This document shows, piece after piece, positions 35,977 to 42,766 of a stretch of DNA of 64,000 nt; within the stretch, counting starts at the first letter, position 1, and each line of letters starts with the position of its first letter. The notes beneath the pieces were generated by a model, which searched no databases, had not been told where the DNA came from, and saw nothing but the letters and a program-made list of their open reading frames with translations. The stretch lies in the NCBI GenBank assembly GCA_004138175.2, contig RYFE02000007.1, positions 1 through 64,000 on the forward strand. The letters run 5' to 3'. A program made the translations under genes and the position numbers. The DNA comes from Chloroflexales bacterium ZM16-3. Its GTDB lineage: Bacteria > Chloroflexota > Chloroflexia > Chloroflexales > Chloroflexaceae.

Positions 35977-36128
35977 AGGGCCATTGCTATGAGCGATTAC
36001 TGCGAAACAATTCATGCCGATGCACCGGGGAACCTCCCGCCGCTCCGACTCCCTCGCACCTGCACAATTCCGCTCTGTAGCCATGGGTATGTGTCTCTGG
36101 CTACCAGCGGACTGTGCGGGTAAATAGT

Positions 36129-36884
36129 ATGCGCGAGCGCGTTTATCGAACTGAGGCGGTGATCCTGCGGCGCAGTGACTTCGCAGAGGCCGATCGGCTG
36201 CTGCTGATTGCGACACCAGCCGGTAAGAGCCGGGTGGTGGCGAAGGGCGTCCGTAAGACCACCAGCCGCATCGCCGGACATATCGAGCTCTTCACCTACG
36301 ACAGCATGCTCCTCGCTGTCGGGCGAAACCTTGATATCATCACCCAGAGCCAGGCGATCAACTCGTTCGCACGGATGCACGCCGAGATCGTCCGCCTGAG
36401 CTGCGCCTACTACGTCGCCGAGCTCTACGATAAGCTTACTGAGGAAGGCGAGGAGAATCGCCCGCTCTTCCAGCTGCTCGTCGATACGTTCATGGCTATC
36501 GATCAGAGTGCGAACCCCAGCCTCGTCCTGCGCGCTTACGAGCTGCGCCTGCTCCATATCGCCGGCTACCGACCGCACCTCCATAACTGCGCGGTGTGCG
36601 GCGAACTGCTCGCCGAGGACGCCGACCGCTTCAGCCCTCAGCTCGGCGGTGTGATCTGCCCGCGTGACCGCAAAGCCGACCAGCGGGCAATGGCGATGAG
36701 CAGCCCGGCCTTCCGACTGCTGCGCTACCTCCAGAGCCAGCCCATGAGCGCCGTTGAGGCACTTCACCTCTCGGCAACGGTGCGCGGCGAGGCCGAGAGC
36801 CTGATGCGGGCCTACCTACACAACTTGCTTGAGCGCGAACTGAAGTCGGTAGCCTTCCTTCAGGACGTGATGCGTGGCGAATAA
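36129..36884 (+). CDS. recO: DNA repair protein RecO
   Basis: A 251-residue protein that loads RecA on SSB-coated single-stranded DNA with RecR. The N-terminal OB fold reads RVYRTEAVILRRSDFAEADRLLLIATPAGKSRVVAKGVRK; the helical domain follows, with the zinc region CAVCGELLAEDADRFSPQLGGVICPRDRK. One of the usual four Cys is replaced (ICPRD). The ATG at 36129 is preferred over a frame opening at 36114. The stop codon overlaps the AAGGAG of the next gene, so the two are probably co-translated. Confidence 0.93.
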   Translation: MRERVYRTEAVILRRSDFAEADRLLLIATPAGKSRVVAKGVRKTTSRIAGHIELFTYDSMLLAVGRNLDIITQSQAINSFARMHAEIVRLSCAYYVAELYDKLTEEGEENRPLFQLLVDTFMAIDQSANPSLVLRAYELRLLHIAGYRPHLHNCAVCGELLAEDADRFSPQLGGVICPRDRKADQRAMAMSSPAFRLLRYLQSQPMSAVEALHLSATVRGEAESLMRAYLHNLLERELKSVAFLQDVMRGE

Positions 36885-36895
36885 GGAGTTTCATC

Positions 36896-37588
36896 ATGGC
36901 TTACATCGATCAGCTGCTGGGGCGCGGCGAGCAGATTATCTACATTGCCCGCCAGCACCTCTTTGTCCTCATCGCCAATATTCTCGCCGAGCTGTCGCTC
37001 ATCGCCATCTTGGTGGCCGCCGGGGTCGCATCAAACTGGGCCTTCAGCACCAATACCACTCCGCTGATAGGCAGCCTCACCGCCAGCAGCCTCATCCTGC
37101 TGATCTGCGTGGTCATCAGTGTGATTGTGATGATCAGCGGGTTTATGGACTATCTCCGCTGGACTACCGAGCAGTATGTGATTACCGACCGGCGGGTGAT
37201 TCAGGTGCGCGGCATCGTCAACAAGCGGGTGATTGACTCGTCGCTGGAGAAGATCAACGATGTGGAGCTGCGCCAGACTCTGGTCGGTCGCATGATGAAC
37301 TTCGGCACGGTTGAGATCCTCACCGCCTCAGATGATGCGATCAATGTGATGGATCGGATCGAGGCACCGCTGGAGTTTAAGAAGGCGATGCTCGACGCCA
37401 AGCATAACCACGAGCGCGGCTATGGCTACCTCGACCCGCAGGGCTACCAGGCAACCCAGCAGCGCCCCTCCATGTCGGCGGGCGATATCCAGCGCACCCT
37501 GGAGGAGCTGGCCGCTCTCCGCGAGCGCGGCATCCTCTCGGTCGATGAGTTCGAGGCGAAGAAGCGTGAGCTTCTAAGCAGAATCTGA
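36896..37588 (+). CDS. PH-like (DUF304) membrane protein with SHOCT tail
   Basis: A 230-residue protein. Two membrane helices (about residues 20-45 and 58-80) precede a bacterial PH domain (YVITDRRVIQVRGIVNKRVIDSSLEKINDVELRQTLVGRMMNFGTVEILTASDD). The C-terminus is a SHOCT-like helix (LEELAALRERGILSVDEFEAKKRELLSRI), a short oligomerisation module. Function is unknown; such proteins are often membrane-associated scaffolds. AAGGAG lies 7 bases before the ATG. It forms a pair with recO. Confidence 0.85.
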   Translation: MAYIDQLLGRGEQIIYIARQHLFVLIANILAELSLIAILVAAGVASNWAFSTNTTPLIGSLTASSLILLICVVISVIVMISGFMDYLRWTTEQYVITDRRVIQVRGIVNKRVIDSSLEKINDVELRQTLVGRMMNFGTVEILTASDDAINVMDRIEAPLEFKKAMLDAKHNHERGYGYLDPQGYQATQQRPSMSAGDIQRTLEELAALRERGILSVDEFEAKKRELLSRI

Positions 37589-37633
37589 GAGAGGGTGTGG
37601 GAGAGAACCGGTTCTCTCCCACACCCTTTCTCT
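37587..37633. terminator. GAGAGG palindrome before the nucleoside phosphorylase gene
   Basis: GAGAGAGGGTGTGGGAGAGAA and its inverse arm form a stem of about 20 bp around CCGG, directly at the stop of the PH-protein gene. T-rich sequence follows. It can terminate the recO transcript and leaves 17 bases to the next start. Confidence 0.75.
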
Positions 37634-37650
37634 TTACGGGTAAGGATCGT

Positions 37651-38469
37651 ATGTATGAACTAATCGAGCGGGCGCGGGCGGCCATCGCCGGGCGCATCCA
37701 TGTGATGCCGAAGGTCGGACTGATCCTCGGATCTGGCCTGGGCGACCTGGCCGATGATCTGGATCAGTCCGCCGTTGTGCCCTACGCCGATATTCCGGGC
37801 TTCCACGCGCCGAAGGTGCCCGGCCACCGGGGCGAGTTGGCCGTTGGCCTGATGGCAGGCCAGCCGGTGGCCGCCCTACGCGGTCGCTTCCACTTCTACG
37901 AGGGCTACTCGATGCAGGAGGTGGCCTTCCCGGTGCGCGTGCTTCAGGCGCTCGGCTGCGAGACGCTGATTGTCACGAATGCTGCCGGGGGCCTGCGCCC
38001 CGACTGGCAGGTGGGCGATATTATGCGCATTAGCGACCAGATCTTCTTGCCCGGCATGATCGGGAATCACCCCCTGCGTGGCGAGAACGACGACCGGCTC
38101 GGCCCGCGCTTCCCCGGCGTCGTCGGTGCCTTCGACAATGATCTGGTGCCCCTGGCCCGCGAGGTGGCCGCCGCCCAGGGCACGACGCTGCGCGAGGGCG
38201 TCTATTGCATGCTCTCGGGGCCGGCCTTCGAGAGCGCCGCCGAGATCCGTATGCTGCGGGTCTGGGGGGCCGACGCCGTAGGCATGTCTACCGCCCCCGA
38301 GGTGATTGTGGCCATCCACGGCGGCATGCGCGTCCTGGGCTTCTCGCTGATCACCAACCTGGCCATGCCCGACGGCCCCCCGGCCAACCACGCCGAGGTG
38401 CTTGAGGCCGGCGAGCAGGCCAAGCCCCGCTTCTCAGCCCTTATCCGCGGCATCCTCAGCCGCATGTAA
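37651..38469 (+). CDS. punA: purine nucleoside phosphorylase
   Basis: A 272-residue cytosolic enzyme of purine salvage that splits inosine or guanosine with phosphate. Trimeric PNP-family motifs are clear: VGLILGSGLGDLAD (phosphate loop), VPGHRGELAVG, ALRGRFHFYEGYSMQEV, TNAAGGLRPDWQVGDIM, GVYCMLSGPAFESAAEIRMLRVWGADAVGMSTAPEVIVAIHGGMRVLGFSLITNLA. The ATG at 37651 has AAGGA close upstream; an in-frame ATG at 37597 would translate the palindrome. A strong hairpin terminator follows. Confidence 0.95.
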   Translation: MYELIERARAAIAGRIHVMPKVGLILGSGLGDLADDLDQSAVVPYADIPGFHAPKVPGHRGELAVGLMAGQPVAALRGRFHFYEGYSMQEVAFPVRVLQALGCETLIVTNAAGGLRPDWQVGDIMRISDQIFLPGMIGNHPLRGENDDRLGPRFPGVVGAFDNDLVPLAREVAAAQGTTLREGVYCMLSGPAFESAAEIRMLRVWGADAVGMSTAPEVIVAIHGGMRVLGFSLITNLAMPDGPPANHAEVLEAGEQAKPRFSALIRGILSRM

Positions 38470-38546: not shown

Positions 38547-41501
38547 ATGACCGACCGTACTCTCACACCGCTCGACACGATCGCCGGGTTCGATGAGCCG
38601 CTCCGCAAGAAGCTGGCCGACCAGTTCTGGATCACTAGCGCCGAGGAGTTCCATAGCGTCGTCCGCTCAAGCAACCAGCAGTATGTCAGTGGGCGCAAGG
38701 CGCTCTCGGTGGCCCTGGGCATCGACGAGGCTCAGGTGAAGGCTCTGGCCGATACTGTCCGCGCTGCCCTCCCCTCCGACACGCCCTTCTCTATCCCGGC
38801 CGATATTGAGGTCGGAGCCGGCCTGCTGATGGACGGCGTGCCCGAGATCGAGGCCAGCTCCTTTGCCACCGTGGTCGATCTGCCGGAGTCCGTCGAGCCG
38901 CTCACCAAGGCCAAGGGCATTCCCGACCCGCAGAACCAGGGCAAGCGCAACACCTGCGTGGCCTTCTCGCTGGCCTCGGTCGTCCAGATCCTCAGCAGCG
39001 ACCCGACCGATCTCTCGGAGCAGTTCCTCTACTATCTGTGCAAGCAGAAGGACGGCATCCCCGGCGATGTGGGCACCAACCCGGCCCTGGCTATCCAGCT
39101 GCTGCGCGACGAGGGCATCTGCACCGAGCCGACCTGGCCCTACCACCCCGACCCCGACAGCAGCCAGCCCGGCGGCCCCACGCCGCCCCCGCCTGCCTAC
39201 GACGAGGCCAAGCGCCGCCGGATCACCGGCTTCACCCAGCTGCCGGCGAAGGGTACCGCCGGGGTCGCCCAGATCCAGGCTCAGCTGGCCCAGGGCAAGC
39301 CGGTGATGATCGGCATGCCGATCTATGAGCACTGGACGGGCTCGACCCAGGGGACGCTGCTGGGTCGGCTGCGCTTCCCGCTGCCTGGCGAGCGCCAGTC
39401 CGGCGGCCACGCGATGTGTGTGGTGGGCTATCGCACCGATGATACGGCCCCCGGCGGCGGCTACTTTATTGTGCGGAACAGCTGGGGCACCGAGTGGGGC
39501 AAGGATAATATCGACGGCCCCGGCTACTGCCACATGCCCTTTCTTCTGGTGGCCCGCCAGAATCTGGTGGCCTTTGTGGCCGACGGTATTGTCGTCGAGG
39601 CGAAGGTGACCGCGCCGGTCGCGCCGCCGAAGAAGGTCGGCTCGCGTGGCAAATTCGGCTCGGCCCGCCTGGGCAGTTCGGGCGAGGGCGGCGATAACCT
39701 GATGGCGATCTACGCCGACCTGCTGGCGGTGAAGGAACAGGTCGATGATCTGACGCTGCGGCTCCAGAGCATCCTGGGCGCGAGCGCGCCTGCCGAGGAT
39801 GTGGAGGCTGTGGCGGGTGAGGATGCGGCACCAGCTGCTGAGGAGGTTGTTGTGGCATCGGCTACCAAAGCTCCCAAGCTCGCTGCGCCGGTGAAGGACG
39901 GCTACGAGGCACCGCTGGTCTTCATCAACACTGGCGCAATCGAGGGCGGCGAGCAGCTCTACCCCAACGGCATCGACGGTGTGACCGGCAAGCCCCTGCT
40001 GCAGATCGATGCGTCCACAGCATCTCGCCTTGCCCAGGGCCTTGAGCCTGAGCCGCAGGAGATGACCAACCTCTACAAGAATAAGCAGATCGACGCCAGC
40101 GGCGGCCACTTCGGCACGGTTGCCGGCATCGAGCAGACCAGGGTCGAGGAGGCGCGCTGGGCCGTGGTGGTGAGCGCCGTCGACAGTGTCGATGTGATCA
40201 AATCCCTCTGGCCGCTCATCCAGCACCGCATGAAGCAGATGGGCTACACCAAGCTCGACTTTAACTTCCAGTCGGGCGACACGGACTGTGGTAAATGGCT
40301 GGGCCGGCACTCGGATGGCTTTAAGAAGACCCTGTCCAACGCATGGGGCGAGGTGCCGCCGGTGCTGGTGGCGCGCCCCGGCGAGCGGGTGAACGCCTGG
40401 CTGGCCCGCCACGGCGTGGCCCAGGGGCCGGTTGACCCTAAGCGTGGCGTGCCCTTCTACCTGATGATCGCCGCGCGCCCCGGCCCGCTCAACGATGCCG
40501 ATAAGGCATTCATCCCGCTGAACTTCCAATACGAGCTGGACATCTTCTGGGGCGTGGGCCGGCTGATCTTTAGCGACGCCAGCGGCCAGCATCGCCTGGA
40601 CGACTACAAATCTTACGCCGAGCGGGTGGTGGCCTGGGAGAGCCGCGCCGACGCCGCCTCGCGCCTGAGCAAGGAGATTGCCTTCTTTGGCACCCGCCAC
40701 GAGGAGGACACCTCGACCATCCGCAGCGCTGATGAGCTGATCGTGCCGCTGGTAGACTGGACCAAGACCGAGAAGCTGCCGACCGAGAAGGGCTTCAAGT
40801 CGACGCTCTACCTTTCGGAGCAGGCCACGCGCAGCAACCTAGAGAAGCTGCTCAGCGCCAGCAAGCCGCCAGCCCTGCTCTTCACCGCCAGCCACGGCAT
40901 CGGCCTGCCGCTCAGCGATGATCGTCTGGTGATGCACCAGGGCTCCCTGGTGACGGCCGACTTCACGGGCTTCGGCAGCATCAAGCGCGAGCATTGGATG
41001 GCGGGCGAGGATCTGGACGGCATGGCGGGCGCGAATGTGGAGGGCATGATCGCCTTCCTCTTCGCCTGCTACGGGGCCGGCTGTCCGCAGAAGGACGAGT
41101 TCCTCTTTGATGCGAACAAGCAGCGCCCGACCATCGCGCCCTTCCCCTTTATGGCCCAGTTGCCCCAGCGCCTGCTGACCAAGGGTGCCCTGGCCGTACT
41201 CGGCCACGTCGAGCGGGCCTGGACCTACTCGTTCAGCGGCACCGAAGCCGGCACTACCCGTCAGGTGCAGCCCTTCCAGGATGTGCTCGGCCGGCTGATG
41301 CAGGGCCGACCGGCCGGCGACGCCACCGACCAGTTCAATGTCATCCAGGGCGCGCGCTCAATGACCCTGACCGAGGAGCTTGAGGCGATCACCTACGGGG
41401 CCACGCCCGACCCGACGCTGCTCTCGCGGCTGTGGATGGCCCGCAACGACGCGCGTAACTACGCGCTGCTCGGCGACCCGGCGGTGAAGCTGGCGATGTA
41501 G
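38547..41501 (+). CDS. papain-like plus gingipain/caspase-like double cysteine protease
   Basis: A 984-residue protein without a signal peptide. Residues 1-75 form a helical, helix-hairpin-helix/DUF4332-like domain (LDTIAGFDEPLRKKLADQF and LGIDEAQVKALADTVR). Residues about 115-345 are a C1 papain-like peptidase with its whole active site: NQGKRNTCVAFS (Q131, C137), SGGHAMCVVGYR (H288) and FIVRNSWGTEWG (N311). A helical and acidic linker (345-450) follows. The C-terminal part (about 640-984) resembles clan CD peptidases of the gingipain/caspase/CHAT type: ALLFTASHGIGL (H783), IAFLFACYGAGCP (C841) and the YALLGDPAVKL ending. Two protease classes in one cytosolic chain suggest a processing or cell-death/defence role, which is inference. 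AAGGA precedes the ATG. The stop TAG runs directly into a G-rich heptamer array. Confidence 0.85.
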   Translation: MTDRTLTPLDTIAGFDEPLRKKLADQFWITSAEEFHSVVRSSNQQYVSGRKALSVALGIDEAQVKALADTVRAALPSDTPFSIPADIEVGAGLLMDGVPEIEASSFATVVDLPESVEPLTKAKGIPDPQNQGKRNTCVAFSLASVVQILSSDPTDLSEQFLYYLCKQKDGIPGDVGTNPALAIQLLRDEGICTEPTWPYHPDPDSSQPGGPTPPPPAYDEAKRRRITGFTQLPAKGTAGVAQIQAQLAQGKPVMIGMPIYEHWTGSTQGTLLGRLRFPLPGERQSGGHAMCVVGYRTDDTAPGGGYFIVRNSWGTEWGKDNIDGPGYCHMPFLLVARQNLVAFVADGIVVEAKVTAPVAPPKKVGSRGKFGSARLGSSGEGGDNLMAIYADLLAVKEQVDDLTLRLQSILGASAPAEDVEAVAGEDAAPAAEEVVVASATKAPKLAAPVKDGYEAPLVFINTGAIEGGEQLYPNGIDGVTGKPLLQIDASTASRLAQGLEPEPQEMTNLYKNKQIDASGGHFGTVAGIEQTRVEEARWAVVVSAVDSVDVIKSLWPLIQHRMKQMGYTKLDFNFQSGDTDCGKWLGRHSDGFKKTLSNAWGEVPPVLVARPGERVNAWLARHGVAQGPVDPKRGVPFYLMIAARPGPLNDADKAFIPLNFQYELDIFWGVGRLIFSDASGQHRLDDYKSYAERVVAWESRADAASRLSKEIAFFGTRHEEDTSTIRSADELIVPLVDWTKTEKLPTEKGFKSTLYLSEQATRSNLEKLLSASKPPALLFTASHGIGLPLSDDRLVMHQGSLVTADFTGFGSIKREHWMAGEDLDGMAGANVEGMIAFLFACYGAGCPQKDEFLFDANKQRPTIAPFPFMAQLPQRLLTKGALAVLGHVERAWTYSFSGTEAGTTRQVQPFQDVLGRLMQGRPAGDATDQFNVIQGARSMTLTEELEAITYGATPDPTLLSRLWMARNDARNYALLGDPAVKLAM

Positions 41502-41605: not shown

Positions 41606-42766
41606 ATGACAACTGATCTTGCCAACTCGCTCATCAGCTGGATGCAGCCGTGTCTGGATACCTACCTGGAGGAGCTGCGCCAGCTTTGTGCGATCGAGTG
41701 CCCCAGCAGCCATAAGCTCGGCGTGGATGAGGCCGGGGCCTGGGTGCGGGGCTGGGTGGCGGCGCGGGGCTGGGAGTTATCCGACTACCCCGACGAGCGG
41801 GCCGGCGATGGGCTGGTGGCTACGGTACGTGGAACGGGTACGCTGCGGGCTATGCTGGTCGCTCACCTGGACACGGTCTACCCGGTGGGTGTGGCGGCCG
41901 AGCGCCCGCTGCGACGCGAGGGGAATACTCTGCTCGGTCCGGGCAGCGCCGATAACAAGAGCGGTCTGCTCTCGGGTCTCTACGCGGCGGCGGCGCTGGC
42001 CGAGCTGGCACCCGATAGCTTCGCCACACTGAGCGTGGTCTGCGGCGGCGATGAGGAGACCGACTCGCGAGCCTCGGCGGCCATGCTGGATGCGTTGGCC
42101 CCCGACTACGACATCGCTCTGGTGCTGGAGGCCGGCCGCGAGAACGGCGACATCGTGAGCGCACGCAAGGGCGGCGGCATGTTCAGCCTGGAGGTGACCG
42201 GGCGCGCGGCCCACGCCGGGGTCGAGCCGGAGAAGGGGTCCAGCGCGGTGCTGGCCATGGCTCACCAGATCATTGCGCTTCAGGCGCTCAACGGCATGCG
42301 CTCCGGCGCGACGGTGAACGTGGGGGTGATCTCGGGCGGCAGCGTGCCCAACGCCGTGCCCGACAGCGCCAGCGCCTTGATCGATGTGCGGGTGACTCGC
42401 CCCGAAGATATGGCACCGGTCGAGGAGGCGATCCGGGCGATCGCCAGCGAGGAGCGGGTGCCCGGCACCCACACGAGCGTCGGCGGCAGCTGGGGCTTCC
42501 CGCCGATGGCGCGCACCCCGCAGATCCTGCGCCTGGCCGAGGTGGCAAAGGGCTGCGCCGAGGAGCTTGGCTTTCGCATCAGCGATGCGGCCACCGGCGG
42601 GGTGAGCTACGCCAACCTGCTGGCTGGTCTGGGCCTGCCGGTGCTCGACGGGCTCGGCCCGGTGGGCGGGCTCGACCACAGCCCGCGCGAGTATATTGAC
42701 ATCGACAGCATCGTGCCGCGCACGGCCCTGCTGGCCATGATTGTGGCGCGGGCGGGAGAGATGTAG
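41606..42766 (+). CDS. M20-family zinc peptidase (carboxypeptidase G2-like)
   Basis: A 386-residue metallopeptidase. The ligands and base are visible in MLVAHLDTVYP (His/Asp), GPGSADNKSGLLSGLYA (bridging Asp) and VCGGDEETDSRAS (catalytic Glu and ligand Glu), followed by a dimerisation domain with VTGRAAHAGVEPEKGSSAVLAMA and a C-terminal GLDHSPREYID His. The family removes C-terminal Glu or hydrolyses aminoacyl compounds; the exact substrate is not clear. No signal peptide is present. No good ribosome site is seen upstream. Its stop TAG (42764-42766) is shared with the palindrome at 42763. Confidence 0.93.
   Translation: MTTDLANSLISWMQPCLDTYLEELRQLCAIECPSSHKLGVDEAGAWVRGWVAARGWELSDYPDERAGDGLVATVRGTGTLRAMLVAHLDTVYPVGVAAERPLRREGNTLLGPGSADNKSGLLSGLYAAAALAELAPDSFATLSVVCGGDEETDSRASAAMLDALAPDYDIALVLEAGRENGDIVSARKGGGMFSLEVTGRAAHAGVEPEKGSSAVLAMAHQIIALQALNGMRSGATVNVGVISGGSVPNAVPDSASALIDVRVTRPEDMAPVEEAIRAIASEERVPGTHTSVGGSWGFPPMARTPQILRLAEVAKGCAEELGFRISDAATGGVSYANLLAGLGLPVLDGLGPVGGLDHSPREYIDIDSIVPRTALLAMIVARAGEM

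Follow-up and report, generated by a model that had tools for sequence, protein, structure and literature searches.

A conserved Chloroflexaceae protein predicted to pair a papain-family with a gingipain-type protease, and its relatives in STAND/CHAT operons

Why would one intracellular bacterial protein carry two cysteine proteases of different clans, and does such a pairing point to signalling, to defence or to ordinary protein turnover? The question is raised by an open reading frame at 38547..41501 (+) of the window, the 64,000-nucleotide stretch of DNA from Chloroflexales bacterium ZM16-3 analysed here. Its start, stop and length agree with those given in an earlier sequence-only reading of the same DNA. 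The reading frame, full-length orthologues and an AlphaFold2 (AF2) model together describe a 984-aa protein made up of an N-terminal domain, a papain-family (C1A) protease, a linker and a C25-like, gingipain-type protease. The catalytic positions proposed by the sequence-only reading (Q131, C137, H288, N311, H783 and C841) are correct on the translation, and the YALLGDP motif that it noticed near the C-terminus is present at residues 972-978.

An apparent fusion of this kind might be two genes joined through an assembly error or a frameshift, a possibility that the sequence-only reading had itself raised. The fusion is a single full-length ORF in 27 distinct loci, the window included, and single-contig genomes are among these; this refutes the artefact, and we give it practically no credence. 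What could be cited in its favour are two genomes in which the parts are separate. In G026 there is a two-gene version, with an ATGA overlap and helix-forming sequence on both sides, and it looks genuine. In G027 (L053 3740-3860), the papain and C25 halves are two ORFs that meet just past an A10 run, which may reflect a sequencing error, a real frameshift or programmed slippage, and this version was left out as evidence of a split. A separate irregularity is seen in G010 (L042 3633-6377), where the last ~65 residues of the fusion lie in a different frame, through either an assembly frameshift or a real truncation.

The first head is readily placed. The papain-family domain (residues 100-350; 38844..39596, +) matches Pfam PF00112 (Peptidase_C1) at residues 112-320 with an E-value of 2.5e-16 and 60.8 bits, above the cut-off of 20.7. 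The best PDB sequence match is xylellain (3ois), a bacterial papain-like enzyme, on which residues 88-350 of the AF2 model superpose with a Z of 29.3 (VIA-align; 237 residues aligned, 28% identity). The oxyanion glutamine Q131 and the nucleophile C137 (codons within 38937..38957, +), H288 in the motif GGHAMC (39408..39410, +) and N311 in NSWG (39477..39479, +) are invariant in all 30 homologous C1 domains, which bears out the claim of a complete C1 active site. By profile and by catalytic residues the protein belongs with the C1A family, and its activity is predicted on that basis. The fold and the Q/C/H/N set are common to xylellain and bacterial C1A enzymes, but here the papain follows a helical domain and makes up the N-terminal half of a protein that carries a second protease.

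The second head, a C25-like clan CD domain covering residues 471-984 (39957..41498, +), was identified by structure rather than by sequence profile. A search of the PDB with its sequence profile gave no match, and Peptidase_C25 (PF01364) reaches only 13.3 bits at residues 877-982 against a cut-off of 23, so we file the protein as C25-like and not as a typical C25 member. Five homologues (L068, L069, L070, L071 and L074) do pass the C25 cut-off, at 23.1-29.8 bits. A profile search had been proposed as a check on the two heads, and its outcome is therefore divided: C1 passes outright, while C25 passes in relatives and stays below threshold in the window protein. The accompanying proposal, structure prediction, returned two confident folds with a peptidase fold in the C-terminal part. 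The whole-chain model, built on a 43-row alignment, has a mean pLDDT of 85.8, with both protease domains mostly at or above 90, and the C25-like region modelled alone reaches a pLDDT of 91.6 and a pTM of 0.93. Residues 517-984 of the whole-chain model superpose on gingipain R (1cvr) with a Z of 22.1 (VIA-align; 312 aligned, 3.5 A). The domain modelled alone gives Z 22.0 over 314 residues on the same structure and Z 20.6 on gingipain K (Kgp, 4rbm), with 314-319 residues aligned across both gingipains. Nearly all of its fold neighbours are clan CD folds, and those that follow the gingipains (CHAT, separase, MALT1, legumain and metacaspase) score Z 10-15. We therefore rejected CHAT and C14 as the C-terminal family, since the gingipains score clearly higher; within the label 'gingipain/caspase-like' first given to this region, the gingipain (C25) side is the right branch of clan CD.

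The positions of the catalytic residues along the chain agree with this placement. In the model, H783 (40893..40895, +) directly follows a strand at 775-781 and C841 (41067..41069, +) directly follows a strand at 835-839, which is the clan CD arrangement. Both residues are kept in 27 of 27 full-length fusions, so that the proposed clan CD-like site stands, and across 51 C25-like domains H783 is found in 50, C841 in 49 and the complete dyad in 49. The YALLGDP motif (41460..41480, +) marks the end of the domain in the alignment, and its GDP is retained in every copy that extends that far. A C-terminal GDP motif is a feature of the gingipain family C25. The C25 head also has the catalytic fold and the strand-His/strand-Cys order in common with the gingipains RgpB (1cvr) and Kgp (4rbm), with ~12% identity only. 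Gingipains are secreted virulence proteases; the fusion, unlike them and PorU, has no apparent signal peptide, stops where the catalytic domain stops, with neither an IgSF nor a secretion domain after it, and carries its C25-like head behind a papain.

Sequence and models together support the view that a single cytosolic chain holds two proteases whose catalytic residues are intact. Conceivably one of the heads cuts nothing in the cell and acts instead in binding or regulation, in the manner of a pseudo-protease. The two dyad exceptions among the C25-like domains, L072 (both residues lost) and the L069 protein L069_2353 (Cys to Ser), are inactive-looking relatives of the kind this would predict, and many caspase domains in effector position are described as inactive in PMC7159879. 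We nonetheless consider an idle head improbable, given a clan CD dyad in every full-length fusion and C1 residues in every C1 domain compared.

We favour instead a regulated proteolytic switch, in which both heads of this intracellular cysteine protease take part, a proposal whose chances we judge to be about even. Much depends on the parts of the chain that surround the heads. Residues 1-80 (38547..38786, +) form a four-helix N-terminal domain, delineated from the alignment, a family search and the AF2 helices at 17-27, 32-40, 49-57 and 61-74. The sequence-only reading had called it helix-hairpin-helix-like; the helices fit that label, but the domain has no Pfam match and its hairpin glycine is not conserved in the alignment, leaving the label plausible. 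The domain is present in 33 of 41 family genomes (25 of the 28 of good quality) and is essentially confined to the fusion protein: a single marginal match to another protein was found in the 41 genomes, and this want of an evident homotypic partner counts against a switch. A hydropathy scan of the window protein revealed no apparent signal peptide or membrane segment; the highest 19-residue value is 0.01 within the first 60 residues and 1.71 overall, in keeping with the original view of a cytosolic protein, and a cytosolic location is what we predict.

Between the heads lies a fast-evolving linker (residues 351-470; 39597..39956, +), of which 354-383 and 413-445 are predicted to be disordered (pLDDT <50). 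These segments flank a helix at 383-409 (39693..39773, +), possibly a coiled coil, and several C25-only copies begin with a similar helix; the disorder and the helix speak for a switch. Both the sequence and the length of the linker vary among homologues, and no conserved cleavage site was seen among them. This counts against a switch, and the suggested cascade in which one domain activates the other is not borne out by it.

Selection has acted unevenly along the chain. Against five same-genus orthologues, dN/dS is 0.08-0.35 in the three domains (N-terminal, C1 and C25-like) and rises to 0.32-0.60 in the linker, values that are rough because some synonymous distances approach saturation. Purifying selection thus holds both heads, and the linker is freer to change, which is the pattern expected of two working heads on a tether. 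In a quick tree of the C25-like domain, with some open forks and long branches, all fusions fall in one clade with 100% support, together with C25-only copies. Many of the latter are nested among the fusions, including same-genus tandem copies and a STAND-linked copy in G027, and free-standing relatives from other phyla and a paralogue on contig C58 of the window genome lie outside the clade. The simplest account would be that an N-domain-papain module became joined to a C25-like protease once, in the ancestor of the family; later, the papain half would have been lost several times and some copies recruited to STAND operons. Tandem arrays occur in two same-genus species (L038 2139-11495 and L039 92-5058), each consisting of a fusion followed by one to three C25-only copies with all dyads intact.

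The gene's distribution is narrow. Among 300 genomes sampled across Chloroflexota, the C1-C25 fusion was found only within Chloroflexaceae, and the two halves occur together in none of 72,556 plasmid or 50,697 phage records. Close relatives that bear a name are Candidatus Oscillochloris fontis, at 80% over the best segment, and Chloroflexus islandicus, at 50%, which places the host among the filamentous anoxygenic phototrophs. The papain half occurs in another combination as well: in a distant Chloroflexota genome (G228:C89; L101 497-2347) the N-domain and papain are followed by weak CARDB/BACON-like matches. Within Chloroflexaceae the fusion gene is stable, mostly vertically inherited and held at one main chromosomal locus. 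In the window, it is preceded by the conserved neighbours recO, a bPH_2/SHOCT protein and a purine nucleoside phosphorylase (PNP)-family gene (36114..38469, +) and followed by an M20 peptidase (41606..42766, +). The same order, recO, bPH_2/SHOCT, PNP and fusion, recurs across the family, often with an M20 peptidase and a convergent MurJ next, and an M20 family peptidase is found near a fusion or C25 gene in eight loci.

This is a core-gene setting and not a defence island. A defence island around the window copy was rejected, its neighbours being housekeeping genes with no defence genes among them. A similarity search with a crude Walker-motif check found no STAND-like NTPase among 271 genes around 18 main-locus copies, and no NTPase sensor lies in the window copy's own operon. 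No PADLOC model matched up to an E-value of 0.1, and no CRISPR genes were seen near the fusion. Its company of recO, PNP and MurJ rather than sensors, like the missing PADLOC match, has to be counted against a switch. A proposed search of Chloroflexota genomes for the same fusion found it through Chloroflexaceae, at a main locus that is no defence locus. The setting is more congenial to housekeeping turnover of proteins and peptides, in which a bifunctional peptidase with complementary head specificities would act alongside the neighbouring M20 enzyme, with neither a switch nor cell death. A core gene in 25 of 28 good-quality family genomes (by N-domain), the housekeeping neighbourhood, the recurrent M20 peptidase and the lack of a defence-model match all agree with this. 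Yet papain and gingipain heads that are soluble in the cytosol, with their active sites open, would presumably endanger the cell unless regulated, no unfoldase or self-compartmentalising feature was seen, and relatives of the fusion adjoin STAND and CHAT genes. It is mainly this last point that leads us to favour the regulated switch over turnover, which we regard as possible but doubtful.

Those relatives include one divergent whole fusion in G030, which stands last in an array of nSTAND1-WD40, DEAD-box and fusion genes with gaps of ~30 and ~10 bp. In G005 a divergent fusion adjoins two related NACHT-type proteins, of which the one scanned is a NACHT-FGE, and an NTPase sensor lies in the same operon for the divergent relatives L055 and L062. 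Directly after an nSTAND1-WD40 gene in G027 comes a C25-only copy, and the next gene encodes a 937-aa protein whose first half matches the a/b-hydrolase-like proteins described below and whose second half matches C25. Because the six genomes tested hold only one to nine nSTAND1 genes each, adjacency of STAND genes to C25 or fusion genes is unlikely to be due to chance. Similar neighbours recur outside the phylum. The Nostoc sp. MS1 cluster runs a/b-hydrolase-like, C25, CHAT-nSTAND1-WD40 and CHAT; in Sinorhizobium terangae a homologous hydrolase-like and C25 pair faces, in convergent orientation, genes for hypothetical, AAA and CHAT proteins; and a Planktothrix C25 gene has a WD40 gene and a CHAT gene upstream. 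The a/b-hydrolase assignment is based on GHSFG-type motifs and one weak Pfam match below cut-off. The C25-only proteins of these three genera, annotated 'C25 family cysteine peptidase', have ~35% identity to the window protein over the entire C25 head and lack the papain half. The Nostoc and Sinorhizobium plasmid clusters (L116 5657-15425 and L117 5629-15383), with their a/b-hydrolase-like, C25 and CHAT/STAND-type genes, look like a sparsely described conflict system.

Comparable arrangements have been surveyed. According to Kaur et al. 2020 (PMC7159879), caspase superfamily domains in one class of conflict systems are always accompanied by an a/b-hydrolase gene, and that survey and Kaur et al. 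2021 (PMC8195603) describe caspase-like and a/b-hydrolase pairs in NTPase-controlled conflict systems of multicellular prokaryotes, Chloroflexi among them. The C25-like relatives likewise stand with a/b-hydrolase-like, nSTAND1-WD40 and CHAT genes in multicellular hosts; the peptidases named in the available text of Kaur et al. for the STAND/vWA-MoxR systems, however, are caspase, trypsin and transglutaminase-like, and the window copy lacks the systems' other parts. No papain-C25 fusion appears in the available text of either survey, each of which mentions papain once there.

The earlier suggestion of programmed cell death or anti-phage defence therefore fares differently at two levels: STAND/CHAT operons of conflict type do contain C25 family members and, in one case, a divergent whole fusion, but the window copy is a conserved core gene among housekeeping genes rather than a mobile defence gene. 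As an account of the window organism, an abortive-infection or cell-death effector triggered directly by a phage product through the N-domain could draw on that family-level association, on the tandem C25-only copies in sister species, and on hosts that are multicellular and filamentous like those of the published conflict systems (PMC7159879 and PMC8195603). However, defence effectors are usually patchy, whereas the main copy is syntenic, is mostly inherited vertically, occurs in almost every member of the family and adjoins no defence genes. This core, syntenic position weakens the anti-phage account for the window copy, and we think it unlikely.

The best reading of the evidence as a whole is a regulated, two-step intracellular protease of STAND/CHAT conflict type that was domesticated as a core gene. 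The trigger, the substrates and the order of steps in such a mechanism are inferred. Under stress or invasion, a signal would bring several molecules of the protein together by way of the N-domain and linker helix, or in some genomes by way of a STAND partner. Proximity might then let one head cut the exposed linker or a partner, freeing or activating the other, and the released protease would cleave a small number of proteins in the cytosol. No STAND partner adjoins the gene in the window genome, where the protein has apparently taken on a constitutive role. In its boldest form, the proposal is a single-chain cascade, with papain and gingipain-type heads in cis kept inactive and fired by oligomerisation or a STAND sensor, that came from an immune-type operon and became, in filamentous phototrophs, a domesticated core switch for cell fate or stress; we advance this more specific version quite tentatively.

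CHAT proteases of type III CRISPR are switched on by a sensor, and SAVED-CHAT belongs to a protease cascade. Craspase and SAVED-CHAT (8tl0) are the next-best folds to the C25 head (Z 12.4-15.1), a weaker match than the gingipains, and the fusion differs in having a papain, in cis, as its second protease. Taken singly, both heads belong to known kinds; within the libraries and papers compared, the combination and the link from a core gene to STAND/CHAT operons are new. NCBIfam contains no match that would give the fusion a family name, and a search of the available literature found no account of a papain and gingipain pairing in Chloroflexus. Two mechanistically distinct clans, CA and CD, both conserved, meet in one intracellular bacterial chain with no named family in the libraries searched. 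For proteolytic signalling in multicellular bacteria the fusion would offer a small system open to experiment, it ties a Chloroflexaceae core gene to conflict-type operons of cyanobacteria and rhizobia, and it suggests that 'gingipain-type' enzymes have a little-noticed cytosolic, signalling-like branch.

Other C25-like genes were met along the way. The window genome encodes a 685-aa paralogue (L071, G000:C58, 4782-9601) in an operon conserved in several genera, in the order response regulator, C25, a 248-aa unknown, a 112-aa unknown and SufE; judged by eye, the 112-aa unknown is similar to the extension at the C-terminus of the C25 protein. The same genome encodes the 1786-aa L072 protein (G000:C75, 685-7445), whose C25-like domain lacks both catalytic residues and which has a weak C-terminal CHAT match; a CHAT-like 468-aa protein is encoded directly after it. 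In another family of the same order, a C25-like domain is fused to a carbon-nitrogen hydrolase (nitrilase) (L070 6646-9180).
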